From Chitinivorax sp. PXF-14 (GTDB taxonomy: Bacteria; Pseudomonadota; Gammaproteobacteria; Burkholderiales; SCOH01): a stretch of 64,000 bases of DNA. Positions within the stretch are counted from its first letter, which is position 1. Each line of letters opens with the position of its first letter. Position numbers and translations under genes: made by a program. Of the stretch, positions 58,094-62,296 are shown in pieces. Under the pieces are notes generated by a model. The model saw only the letters and a list, made by a program, of their open reading frames with translations, searched no databases and was not told the DNA's origin. The stretch spans positions 248,001 to 312,000 of the forward strand of contig NZ_JBFNXJ010000002.1 in the NCBI RefSeq assembly GCF_040812015.1, read 5' to 3'.

Positions 58094-59749
58094 CTAACCC
58101 GTCAACATCTCCGCCGCATGGCGCAGCGTGGTTTCCGTGATATCGACGCCGCCAAGCATGCGCGCTATCTCTGAGACACGCTGCTGGGCATCGAGTTCGG
58201 CAATCGTGGAAACCGTCAGCCCATTCTCGGTTCGCTTGGCTACCTGCCATTGCTGGTCGCCGCGAGCCGCCACCTGCGGCAGGTGCGTGATGCACAACAC
58301 CTGGTAGCGCTCGCCGAGCCGCTTCAGCAGCTTGCCGACGATTTCCGCCACGCGGCCACCGATGCCGACATCGACCTCGTCGAACACCAGTACCGGCACC
58401 GATGCCACGCGCGATGCCACCACCTGCAAGGCCAGGCTGATACGCGACAACTCGCCGCCTGACGCCACCTTGGCCAAGGGGCGCGGCGCCATGCCGGCAT
58501 TGGCGCCGACGAGGAACTCGACCTGCTCCATGCCGTAGGCGGCGCCCTCGGCCAGCGGCGTGAGCGCGATCTCGAAACGGCCACCCGACATGGCCAGCAG
58601 CTGCATCTCCTGCGTGACCTTGTCGCCAAGGTCACGCGCCGACGCCCGGCGTGCCTCGCTCAGGCGTTGCGCCAGCGCTTCATAGGCCAGACGGGTCTCG
58701 GCCTCGCGCTGGGCGAGCCCAGCCTCGCCGCCTTCGCCGCCAAGCTCGGACAGGCGCTGGCTCCTGCTGGCGAGCAGCTCGGGCAAACGCTCGGGCGTGA
58801 CACGGTACTTGCGTGCCATGCCATGGACGGCATCGAGCCGCGCTTCGATCTCGGCCAGGCGCTGCGGGTCGAGGTCCGCTCGTTGTGCATAGTGGCGCAG
58901 GCCGTAGGCGGCCTCGCGCAATTGCACCTCGGCCGATTCGAGCAGATCGACGGTTTCCTTGAGCGTGGCGTCGTATTCGAGCAGCCCTTGCAGGCGGGAC
59001 AACACGCCCCCGACGATGCCGATACAGCTCGGCTCGCGCTCGGAGATCAGTTCGAGGCCATATTCAGCGCCTTCCAGCAGGCTCACCGCATTGGCGAGCC
59101 GCGAGTGCTCTGTCTGCAGCTCGCGCCAGGCGGCCTCCGTGAACTCGAGCGCGGCGAGCTCCTTCACCTGCCATTGCAGCTGCTCGCGCTCGGCCGCGAA
59201 TGCGGCGGCATGCTGTTCCGCCTCTATGCGGGCCCGGCGTGCGCCTTGCCAGTCAAGGTAGGCCGCGCGCACGCTGGTGGCCAGCTCCAGCTTGCCGGCA
59301 TAGGCATCGAGCAGCGCCCGCTGCGCATCGGCCTTGAGCAAGGATTGGTGGGCGTGCTGGCCATGGATGTCGATCAGCCACTCACCGAGTTCCTTCAACT
59401 GCTGCAAGGTGGCAGAACGCCCGTTGATGAAGCCGCGCGAACGGCCGTTGACGTCGATCGCCCGGCGCACCAGCAGCAAGCCGTCGTCACCATCGAGCTC
59501 CTGCGCCTGCAGCCAGGCACCGGCCTGCGGCAGCCCGGCCAGGTCAAACTCGGCCTCGATCTCGGCGCGCTCGGCCCCGGCCCGCACGACGCCCGCCTCG
59601 GCACGCTCGCCCAACACCAGGCTCAACGCATCGATCAGGATGGATTTGCCGGCACCAGTCTCGCCGCTCAACACGGTAAAGCCTGGTTTGAAGTCGAGTT
59701 CGAGGCGGTCGACGATGACGAAATCACGGATGCGTAGGGTAAGCAGCAT
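58094..59749 (-). CDS. recN: DNA repair protein RecN
   Basis: A 551-residue SMC-like ATPase that acts in recombination and double-strand break repair. The start MLLTLRIRDFVIVDRLELDF and Walker A GETGAGKS (32-39) are typical, the middle is coiled-coil rich, and the C-terminal ASGGELSRISLALQVVASR and PVLVFDEVDVGIGGRVAE (signature and Walker B) complete the ATPase. It starts 12 bases after the nadK stop. The nadK-recN order is common in betaproteobacteria and gammaproteobacteria. Confidence 0.96.
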   Translation of the reverse strand: MLLTLRIRDFVIVDRLELDFKPGFTVLSGETGAGKSILIDALSLVLGERAEAGVVRAGAERAEIEAEFDLAGLPQAGAWLQAQELDGDDGLLLVRRAIDVNGRSRGFINGRSATLQQLKELGEWLIDIHGQHAHQSLLKADAQRALLDAYAGKLELATSVRAAYLDWQGARRARIEAEQHAAAFAAEREQLQWQVKELAALEFTEAAWRELQTEHSRLANAVSLLEGAEYGLELISEREPSCIGIVGGVLSRLQGLLEYDATLKETVDLLESAEVQLREAAYGLRHYAQRADLDPQRLAEIEARLDAVHGMARKYRVTPERLPELLASRSQRLSELGGEGGEAGLAQREAETRLAYEALAQRLSEARRASARDLGDKVTQEMQLLAMSGGRFEIALTPLAEGAAYGMEQVEFLVGANAGMAPRPLAKVASGGELSRISLALQVVASRVASVPVLVFDEVDVGIGGRVAEIVGKLLKRLGERYQVLCITHLPQVAARGDQQWQVAKRTENGLTVSTIAELDAQQRVSEIARMLGGVDITETTLRHAAEMLTG

Positions 59750-59761
59750 GGGTTGGTCGGG

Positions 59762-60637
59762 TCAGATGAGTTTCTCGCCCCAGTGCAGCTTGTGCCGGAG
59801 CATGTCGTAGTAGCTGTAGCCCACGGGATGCAGGATACGCAGCGAATTGCGGTAGCGCCGGATGATGACGCGGTCGAGCTCGTGCAGTTCGAGATGGCTC
59901 TGGTTGTCGAAATGCAGCCGGGTGTCCTGGCCCCGCGTCAGCATGAACTCGACGACGCAGCTGTCGTTGACGGCAATCGGTCGATTGGACAGCGATTGCG
60001 GGCAGATCGGCACCAGCGCGATGGCTGGCAGGGTCGGATGCAGAATCGGCCCGCCCGAGGACAGCGAATAGGCGGTCGAGCCGGTCGGCGTGCTGACGAT
60101 CAGGCCATCCGAGCGCTGGCTGTAGACGAACTGGTCGTCGATGAAGATTTCGAACTCGATCATGCTGCCAGTTGCGCCGCGGCTGAACACCACGTCGTTG
60201 AACGCGAGCGACTTGCACAGCTCCTTGTCGCCACGGATCACCTGCGCCTCCAGCAGGATGCGCTCTTCCGGCACGAATTCGCCCTGCAGGATGCTGCCGA
60301 TCGATTGCTCCATCTCGTGCAGCGGGATGTCCGTCATGAAACCGAGCCGCCCCTGGTTCACGCCCACCAGCGGAATACGGTAAGGCGCCACCAGCCTGGC
60401 GACCGACAACAGGGTGCCGTCGCCGCCGAGCACGATCACCAGGTCGGCCAGGCGGCCGATCTTGTCGCGCTCGATGCGCTGGTATTGGCCTGCCTGCGCC
60501 TCGCTCAAGCTCTGATCGTCGATCAGCACCGTCAGGCCGTTGCTATCGAGAAAACCGGCAAGGTGCAGCAAGGACGTTACGATCTCGCTCTTGCCATGGC
60601 GTGCGACGAGCGCAACCTTCTTGAACAGCGATGTCAT
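59762..60637 (-). CDS. nadK: NAD kinase
   Basis: A 291-residue enzyme that phosphorylates NAD+ to NADP+. The GGDGT motif with the catalytic Asp is at 71-75 (VIVLGGDGTLLS), and the later VNQGRLGFMTDIP and GSTAYSLSSGGPILHPTLPA signatures are present. It lies between the SDR gene and recN on the same strand, with short gaps of 17 and 12 bases. Note nadE at 4.5 kb is far off and not co-transcribed. Confidence 0.96.
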   Translation of the reverse strand: MTSLFKKVALVARHGKSEIVTSLLHLAGFLDSNGLTVLIDDQSLSEAQAGQYQRIERDKIGRLADLVIVLGGDGTLLSVARLVAPYRIPLVGVNQGRLGFMTDIPLHEMEQSIGSILQGEFVPEERILLEAQVIRGDKELCKSLAFNDVVFSRGATGSMIEFEIFIDDQFVYSQRSDGLIVSTPTGSTAYSLSSGGPILHPTLPAIALVPICPQSLSNRPIAVNDSCVVEFMLTRGQDTRLHFDNQSHLELHELDRVIIRRYRNSLRILHPVGYSYYDMLRHKLHWGEKLI

Positions 60638-60654: not shown

Positions 60655-61419
60655 TTAGGGTTTGGCCAACCACTCGGCGCAATCGAACACCTGGCCACTG
60701 ACGCCCTTGCTGTCCGGCCCCAGCAGATAGAGATAGACCGGCAGCAGATCCGCCGGCTCGGGCAGCAGATCCGCCGCTTCGCCGGGGTGGGTCTTGGTGC
60801 GCTGCGGGCTGTGAATCGGCCCGGGGATCACGGTGTTGATGCGCAGCTGCGGGCTCTGATCCCACTCGTTGGCGGCGATCTGCGCATAGAACATGGCTGC
60901 GGCGCGCGATACCGAGAAGCTCCCCCAATAGGGGCTCGGCTTGGCGCCATGGGTCTCGCCCACCATCACGATGGAGGAATCCGCACTGGCGCGCAGCAAC
61001 GGCAGGCAAGCGCGGTTGATCGCTGCGGGCGCCGCCGCATTGGCGCGAAAATGCGAAATCCAGTATTCGAATGGCTCCTGCTCCAGCGGGAACAGGCCGA
61101 TGAAGCTCGACGCATTGTGCAGGATGCCGTCCAGGCGCCCGAGCTGCTTCTCGATCTGCACCGCCACGTTGACGAAATCAGCCTCCACCGCGCGCTCCAG
61201 GTCGATCGGCACAGCCGCCGGCTGGGGGTAGCCCGCAGCCTCGATCTCGTCGTAAACCGCCTCGAGCTTCTTCACGCCACGGCCGAGCAACACCACCGTC
61301 GCCCCGTGGCGGGCAAATGCCAGCGCGGCTTCGCGGCCGATGCCCTGGCCGGCGCCGGTGACCAGAATCACGCGGTCCTTGAGCAGATCGGGTGCAGCTT
61401 GATAAGTACGAAAATCCAT
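60655..61419 (-). CDS. YciK-like short-chain dehydrogenase with lost catalytic residues
   Basis: A 254-residue SDR. The cofactor motif VTGAGQGIGREAALAFARHG (about 20-39) and Asn127 are intact, and the sequence follows E. coli YciK throughout (GRLDGILHNASSF, PADLLPVYLYLLGPDS). At the active site, however, the usual YxxxK is Phe168-Ser-Val-Ser-Arg172, and the catalytic Ser position (13 before the Tyr) is Glu155. All three catalytic residues are therefore replaced, while the binding fold is kept. It may be a pseudo-enzyme or nucleotide-binding sensor. It is between a degenerate synthase-like gene and nadK. Confidence 0.87.
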   Translation of the reverse strand: MDFRTYQAAPDLLKDRVILVTGAGQGIGREAALAFARHGATVVLLGRGVKKLEAVYDEIEAAGYPQPAAVPIDLERAVEADFVNVAVQIEKQLGRLDGILHNASSFIGLFPLEQEPFEYWISHFRANAAAPAAINRACLPLLRASADSSIVMVGETHGAKPSPYWGSFSVSRAAAMFYAQIAANEWDQSPQLRINTVIPGPIHSPQRTKTHPGEAADLLPEPADLLPVYLYLLGPDSKGVSGQVFDCAEWLAKP

Positions 61420-61468: not shown

Positions 61469-62296
61469 TCAGCGGGCCGTCATCGCGATCCAGAGCTTGC
61501 GCAATGGCGTGAGCGATAGCCGCTGATTCAATACCGAAGCCGCACCGGCGCGCGCGATCTCGTTCAGCGTTGCCAACGTGATGCGGGCCACGATCAGATG
61601 AACGCGCTGGCGCCGGCGCTGCTCGGGCGACAGCCCCTTCATCCACTCATGCAGCGCTTGCTGCGCCCGCCCCAGCTGGTGCCGAATCAGCGCCGCGAGT
61701 TCCGGCGTATCACGCAGGCCACTCACCACAGCGGCCGGCACGTTGAACTGCTGCAACTCGGACACGGGCCAGTAGATCACCCCCTTGCGCACATGCGCCC
61801 CCGCCTCGGTGACCGTGCCAGCCAGCGTCAGCGCTACGCCAAGCGCCTCGGCCTGCTTCAGGGCCGGCTCGCTGGTTTCACCGAGCACGCGTGCGCGCAG
61901 CCTGGCCAGCGTTCCGCCGGTGCGCTCGGCATAGAGCCGCAAGCCCGCCAGATCATTGTAGCGGGCATGCACCACATTCATCTCCGCGCCACCGACTAAT
62001 TCGAGCAACTCCTCGCGCGGCAGGCGATAGGCCTGCGTAGCTGGCAGCAGCGCCTGCAGCACCGGATGCTGCGGCGCGCCCTGATACAGGCGCTCGATCT
62101 CCGCGCGCCACCAAGCGAGCTTGGCCTTGGCAACAGTGGGTTCGGAGCATTCATCCACCCCGGCCTCCAGCTCCACCGCCAGCGCCTGCAGTGCCGTCAG
62201 CGCGTCCCGCTGGGCCGGCGCCACGCGGCGCAATGCGTAATACCAGGTGGAGCCAGGTGGGGCCACCTTCTCTTCACAGTACAGTCGATAATCCAA
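61469..62296 (-). CDS. Squalene/phytoene synthase-like protein, degenerate
   Basis: A 275-residue all-alpha protein homologous to squalene/phytoene synthases (ALQALAVELEAGVDEC, AKLAWWRAEIERLY, LAGLRLYAERTGGT, then RKGVIYWPVSELQQFNV). The first Asp-rich motif is reduced to one Asp pair position, and the second (normally RDVGEDARRG-like) reads TEAGAHVRKG, where the metal-binding aspartates are Glu and His. Catalysis of prenyl condensation therefore looks unlikely. It resembles NDUFAF6-type inactive homologues. Translation starts at a TTG (62296); no ATG in frame upstream. It is first in the run with the SDR, nadK and recN. Confidence 0.8.
   Translation of the reverse strand: MDYRLYCEEKVAPPGSTWYYALRRVAPAQRDALTALQALAVELEAGVDECSEPTVAKAKLAWWRAEIERLYQGAPQHPVLQALLPATQAYRLPREELLELVGGAEMNVVHARYNDLAGLRLYAERTGGTLARLRARVLGETSEPALKQAEALGVALTLAGTVTEAGAHVRKGVIYWPVSELQQFNVPAAVVSGLRDTPELAALIRHQLGRAQQALHEWMKGLSPEQRRRQRVHLIVARITLATLNEIARAGAASVLNQRLSLTPLRKLWIAMTAR

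Follow-up and report, generated by a model that had tools for sequence, protein, structure and literature searches.

A YciK-branch SDR without its classical catalytic triad and its candidate partnership with a broken HpnD relative in beta-proteobacteria

Introduction

A protein that keeps the fold of an SDR together with the cofactor site, but not the catalytic residues, raises the question of what it is kept for. We addressed this question for a YciK-branch SDR of 254 amino acids that was encoded by a single ATG-started open frame at positions 60655..61419 on the minus strand of the window (the whole stretch of DNA that was analysed, 64,000 nucleotides from Chitinivorax sp. PXF-14). An earlier note on the same DNA had drawn attention to this gene. 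Here we describe the protein, its relatives and its genomic neighbourhoods, and then weigh the possible reasons for its survival.

Results

The product of the gene was recognized as adh_short by Pfam (E 4e-29). Its top-scoring curated NCBIfam model was PRK08703, "SDR family oxidoreductase", with 294.7 bits against a curated cut-off of 324, and PRK08945, "YciK family oxidoreductase", scored 249.5 bits, likewise below its cut-off of 269. The nearest solved structures by sequence were of the YciK type, 3i1j from Pseudomonas syringae being at the top. An AlphaFold2 model calculated from 36 family members (pLDDT 94.9, pTM 0.93) predicted an intact Rossmann-type SDR fold. When this model was submitted to Foldseek, YciK structures ranked first (TM 0.90-0.93, rmsd mostly 1.1-1.4; best 3i1j, TM 0.91), and the NADP(H)-bound entries 3f1k, 3gy0 and 3gz4 were among these matches.

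The active-site positions were assigned by alignment with the solved YciK proteins and 176 other YciK-branch sequences. The dinucleotide-binding motif TGAGQGIG (codons 21-28, 61336..61359, minus strand) agreed with the TGxxxGxG pattern, and the active-site Asn127 (61039..61041, minus) was kept, as it was in 123 of 125 beta-proteobacterial sequences. The active classical SDRs carry Ser, Tyr and Lys, the latter two as YxxxK. Instead, the window protein had Glu155 (60955..60957), Phe168 (60916..60918) and Arg172 (60904..60906), all on the minus strand, at the positions of the catalytic Ser, Tyr and Lys, respectively. The Ser region read VGETHG versus TSSSVG and the Tyr/Lys region YWGSFSVSR versus NWGAYAASK. 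Thus, the alignment to solved YciK agreed with the original description of the protein, in which the fold, the cofactor motif and Asn127 were intact and the three catalytic residues were replaced.

Relatives were gathered from the window's family, its order and a wider genome collection. The clade was labelled beta-proteobacterial after its named members (Sulfuricella, Nitrosomonas and Methylobacillus), and the family and order labels were the groups given by the tool. The Ser-Tyr-Lys triad was present in none of the 154 beta-proteobacterial YciK-branch sequences with data at the triad positions; among the outgroup (gamma) sequences it was found in 46 of 52. The most frequent beta combinations were E-F-K (61), E-Y-K (24), D-F-K (10), E-F-Q (9) and E-F-R (9), followed by many rarer ones. 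In 125 beta sequences, position 155 was near-fixed as an acid (108 sequences; E 95, D 13), with Ser in 10 and S, T, N, G or A as the non-acidic residues of some lineages. Position 168 was F in 90, Y in 25, H in 5 and A, L or I in 5 (Y in all 52 outgroup sequences), and position 172 was K in 101, R in 10 and Q, S, M, H or N in 14.

The earlier note had proposed that relatives keeping Ser-Tyr-Lys, with the window gene as a lone exception, would point to a sequence error. Two genomes of one related genus (L089 and L090, with SDRs 73% identical to that of the window) had the same E/F/R residues, and this, together with the complete lack of Ser-Tyr-Lys among the 154 beta sequences, ruled out both a sequencing error and a lone exception. 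As to whether E/F/R was fixed in a clade, the answer was mixed: it was shared with L089 and L090, but the third related genus of the window's family (L091 and L092) had E/F/K, and across the whole clade the triad positions were varied. Arg172 was recurrent, appearing in at least three lineages, and E/F/R had separate origins in the window's family, in family f22 (L147, L169, L173 and L187) and in L011.

With the active-site columns removed before tree building, the beta sequences formed one clade with support 100 beside the gamma YciK proteins, and the window protein was inside it. The gamma group nearest to this clade had mixed triads (D-Y-K, S-Y-N, T-Y-K, A-Y-K and S-Y-K), so the erosion of the triad appeared to have started near that point. 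Six gamma YciK proteins nearest to the beta clade (L052, L041, L065, L066, L069 and L084) each lacked one triad residue (K->N, S->D, S->T or S->A). Additionally, the yciK of L044, from a record titled Salinisphaera sp. G21_0, fell within Endozoicomonas on the tree and may be mislabelled or contaminated.

Two further ideas about the triad were set aside. Lys was absent in 23 of 100 sequences without the Tyr and in 1 of 25 with it; since only 4 independent pairs lay on supported branches, we do not claim that Lys was lost only after Tyr. A relocated catalytic Tyr164, eight residues before Arg172, was rejected as a clade-wide mechanism because it was present in gamma YciK alongside the true Tyr and was Phe in 36 of the 125 beta sequences.

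Outside the triad the protein was strongly conserved. T21, G22, G26, G28, R47, N127, R193, P199, G200, R207 and P212 were 97-100% conserved in the 125 beta sequences, Arg207 and Pro212 being invariant, and three residues were typical of the beta branch: His157 (91%, 114/125), Pro205 (94%) and His211 (97%, 121/125). For a pair of genomes from the window's family (G003 and G004), pN was 0.066 and pS 0.73, quoted as raw proportions because pS was near saturation. Conserved cofactor residues, a variable triad and pN far below pS indicated that selection acts on the SDR protein and its cofactor site and not on the classical triad. The earlier suggestion of selection for the fold with loss of the classical chemistry was borne out by these values and by the open frame.

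Downstream, the gene was followed after 17 nt by nadK (NAD kinase; 59762..60637, minus; above the cut-off of NF002561) and, 12 nt further, by an open frame in the same direction (58094..59749, minus) that we take to be recN from the earlier note and the look of its sequence. The run with nadK and recN was therefore as first described. We found no terminator-like site between the SDR gene and nadK, and the two probably share one transcript. Among the 125 beta loci, nadK adjoined the SDR gene in no family but that of the window, which was represented by five genomes.

On the other side, 49 nt upstream of the SDR start, there was a TTG-started gene (61469..62296, minus) for an HpnD-like protein of the squalene/phytoene synthase family. 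It had a full-length squalene/phytoene synthase domain (PF00494 in Pfam, E 4.3e-51) and scored 230.8 bits with TIGR03465 (HpnD), below the cut-off of 278.6; its AlphaFold2 model (pLDDT 90.8) resembled dehydrosqualene synthases and HpnC. However, both Asp-rich metal-binding motifs of HpnD were broken. The first (codons 41-49, 62150..62176, minus) read VELEAGVDE versus REVDDxxDE in HpnD, and the second (codons 159-168, 61793..61822, minus) read AGTVTEAGAH versus TNIIRDVGED. The HpnD-like gene also evolved faster than the SDR gene: pN was 0.145 and pS 0.72 in the G003/G004 pair, and identity was 51% against 73% for the SDR in the same species pair.

Profile searches of the window's genome recovered one PF00494 protein only, and HpnE did not exceed the cut-off in any of the five genomes of its family; searches of this genome and family gave no hpnC, hpnE or hopene cyclase. 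With a lone PF00494 protein, no HpnE and no hopene cyclase, the window's genome presumably has no HpnCDE squalene route.

HpnC, HpnD and HpnE convert farnesyl diphosphate to squalene, and HpnE is reported to reduce hydroxysqualene (PMC5462960). The beta SDR gene was usually the last one of an hpnC-hpnD-hpnE-SDR run. Neighbourhoods were scored by searches with the known neighbours; antisense ORFs in GC-rich loci spoiled automatic ORF clustering. Upstream sequence of 2.6 kb or more was available for 86 beta loci: hpnC, hpnD and hpnE were all present in 51, hpnD and hpnE in 7, an hpnD relative only in 2 and none of them in 26. Thus hpnE lay upstream in 58 of the 86, and in 24 loci the SDR start overlapped the hpnE stop exactly (ATGA). 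Among the outgroup, hpnCDE adjoined the SDR gene in just two gamma loci, L041 and L065, both with eroded triads. Since the beta group is one clade, the association with hpn genes represents few independent events, and no p-value was attached to it.

The hpn-free SDR loci had unrelated housekeeping neighbours, such as groEL-tig-clpP (f16) or radA-dnaB (f42), and no common functional theme was found among them. In the Nitrosomonas-type family f16 (L014, L151 and L160) the SDR gene was located between groEL and tig-clpP-clpX-like genes, and these SDRs had Ser, Asp, Thr, Asn or Gly at 155 and always Phe at 168. In the order as a whole, at least 201 of 399 sampled genomes had a YciK-branch SDR and 295 of 399 had HpnE; about 100 had HpnE with no YciK-branch match at E 1e-30, at most 6 candidates per genome being scored in both SDR counts.

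The arrangement in the window was found again elsewhere. HpnD proteins with broken motifs, in the absence of HpnE and beside or near the SDR gene, were identified in f1 (L001, L089, L090 and L091), f48 (L095 and L097), f27 (L157) and f36 (L201 in genome G039), so the pattern recurs in at least three families. In L201, two spermidine-synthesis-like genes stood between the broken HpnD and the SDR. The broken HpnDs clustered in the HpnD tree (support 90, long branches) and the SDR tree separated their families; the case for independent losses therefore leans mostly on the SDR tree and on the families to which they belong.

Some of these genomes outside the window's family encoded a hopene cyclase or a further PF00494 protein that looked intact, so their squalene may come from another enzyme. 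In L202, L211, L212 and L214 (genomes G039, G076, G094 and G051, respectively), the Asp motifs of an additional PF00494 protein looked intact (RIADTxED...TNILKDxWED), and in G039, G076 and G094 a hopene cyclase match was on the same contig. This protein may have taken over from HpnCDE as an alternative squalene synthase. Genome G133 (L094 and L199) had HpnC, HpnD and HpnE and no match to the hopene cyclase model, so that its squalene genes came with no evident pathway to hopanoids.

Discussion

We tentatively favour the explanation that the window SDR is an NADP-binding and probably non-catalytic partner of HpnD, kept together with it as a module of two pseudoenzymes after squalene synthesis was lost; we hold this as a plausible account rather than an established one. 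In this scheme, the catalytic Ser would have been replaced by Glu or Asp near the base of the beta branch, after which Tyr would have been lost in most beta lineages and Lys in some, including that of the window; the residue patterns were observed directly and the order of the losses was read from the tree. The SDR would bind NADP(H) but turn over no substrate. Holding its cofactor, it would act as a partner to the squalene enzymes; HpnD is the likeliest one, and the SDR may stabilise or regulate it. In the window's family the squalene route appears to be gone, yet the SDR and the presumably dead HpnD are both kept under purifying selection, from which we infer a second, squalene-independent function of the pair. 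Several observations speak against the partner reading. In 26 of the 86 beta loci both hpnD and hpnE are missing upstream, so the job of the SDR cannot strictly depend on linkage to HpnD. The strong conservation of the acid at 155, of His157 and of His211 leaves room for catalysis of another kind, and the faster evolution of the HpnD-like protein could reflect slow decay.

The main competing explanation, which is possible but which we consider rather doubtful, is that the SDR was re-tooled as an enzyme, with Glu155, His157, Arg207 and His211 arranged as a new active site within the old pocket. The reaction would be another NADPH-dependent step or one that is not redox at all, and its substrate could be an intermediate of squalene synthesis, for example hydroxysqualene. 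These four residues presumably sit in the loops that line the SDR substrate pocket, and the acid at 155, His157 and His211 are conserved strongly enough to make a new active site possible; the invariance of Arg207 and Pro212 and the genetic linkage to hpnE agree with it as well. On the other hand, the residues of hydride transfer vary freely (F/Y/H/A/L/I for Tyr and K/R/Q/H/M/N/S for Lys), the acid at 155 is missing in some lineages, and the gene is retained where HpnE and HpnC are absent. It is improbable, in our view, that the SDR acts as an electron donor to HpnE, with its bound NADPH reducing the FAD of that enzyme, a role that would need the cofactor site and not the triad. The adjoining hpnE with its ATGA overlap, the reported reduction of hydroxysqualene by HpnE and the intact cofactor site would fit this role. 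However, the SDR is kept in genomes without HpnE (the window's family, f48-g50 and f27), the roughly 100 genomes of the order noted above have HpnE and no YciK-branch match, and hydride transfer from protein to protein would require unusually close contact.

The remaining two explanations seem very unlikely. A partner of NadK that senses NAD(P) or acts as a scaffold would suit the short distance to nadK and the probable cotranscription, but this neighbour is confined to the window's family and the triad loss is older and clade-wide. The nucleotide-sensing role that the earlier note had drawn from nadK was thus not supported, the clade-wide neighbours being hpnC-hpnD-hpnE; its alternative, a scaffolding role, survives in the sense that a partner role is possible, with the HpnD relative being a likelier partner than NadK. 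A functionless relic decaying under relaxed selection could account for the scattered Lys losses and the fast-evolving HpnD-like neighbour. Such decay is hard to reconcile with a pN so much lower than pS, with the intact frame and the residues invariant across the clade, and with an SDR that stays 73% identical between genera and persists in about half of the order's sampled genomes.

Returning to the partnership of the SDR with HpnD, the earlier observation was right but understated, since it missed both the clade-wide loss and the adjoining broken HpnD. At least 201 of the 399 genomes of the order carry an "oxidoreductase" that is unable to use the classical SDR mechanism, and "SDR family oxidoreductase" is a misleading name for the beta branch. 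The position in the squalene cassette and the survival beside a dead HpnD suggest that HpnD and its neighbour have a function not described so far, a second, unrecognised job that the triad-less SDR and the dead squalene-synthase relative would share. It is conceivable, though we would not expect it, that an ancient and widespread SDR pseudoenzyme forms with HpnD a module with a non-squalene function that has lasted in several lineages with both of its enzymes dead. These would be the lineages where the squalene pathway was lost or its enzymes were replaced, in what might be, by analogy, a bacterial parallel to the recruitment of NDUFAF6.

Comparison with known systems placed the window SDR closest to YciK, the classical SDR of gamma-proteobacteria (3f1k/3f1l, 3iah, 3i1j; PRK08945), with which it shared the fold, a full-length alignment, the cofactor motif and the Asn. 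In contrast to YciK, it had Ser, Tyr and Lys all replaced, and His157, His211 and Pro205 were typical of the beta branch. The neighbours of the beta SDR were hpnCDE or nadK, unlike E. coli yciK, an uncharacterised gene that shares its operon with btuR (PMC11841063). PRK08703 was the best curated model for the window SDR, yet the score was below its cut-off; the model is named an oxidoreductase, and its probable beta members sampled here were all devoid of the Ser-Tyr-Lys triad. We found no literature that mentioned PRK08703.

The squalene cassette has been described as hpnC-hpnD-hpnE, often followed by shc (PMC5462960). An SDR as its fourth gene was not found in the literature examined, and no paper there connected an SDR with hpnD; a joint mention in Akkermansia proved unrelated. 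In beta-proteobacteria the SDR gene usually came next after hpnE, and the window resembled the cassette in that the gene upstream of the SDR was an HpnD relative; it differed in having neither hpnC nor hpnE and a presumably dead HpnD. NDUFAF6 and NDU1 are mitochondrial complex I assembly factors of the squalene/phytoene synthase family that have no DxxxD motifs and play a non-catalytic role (PMC8007014). They differ from the window's HpnD-like protein in being mitochondrial and in having no described SDR partner, and they resemble it in the loss of the Asp motifs, the shared feature on which the analogy between them is built.
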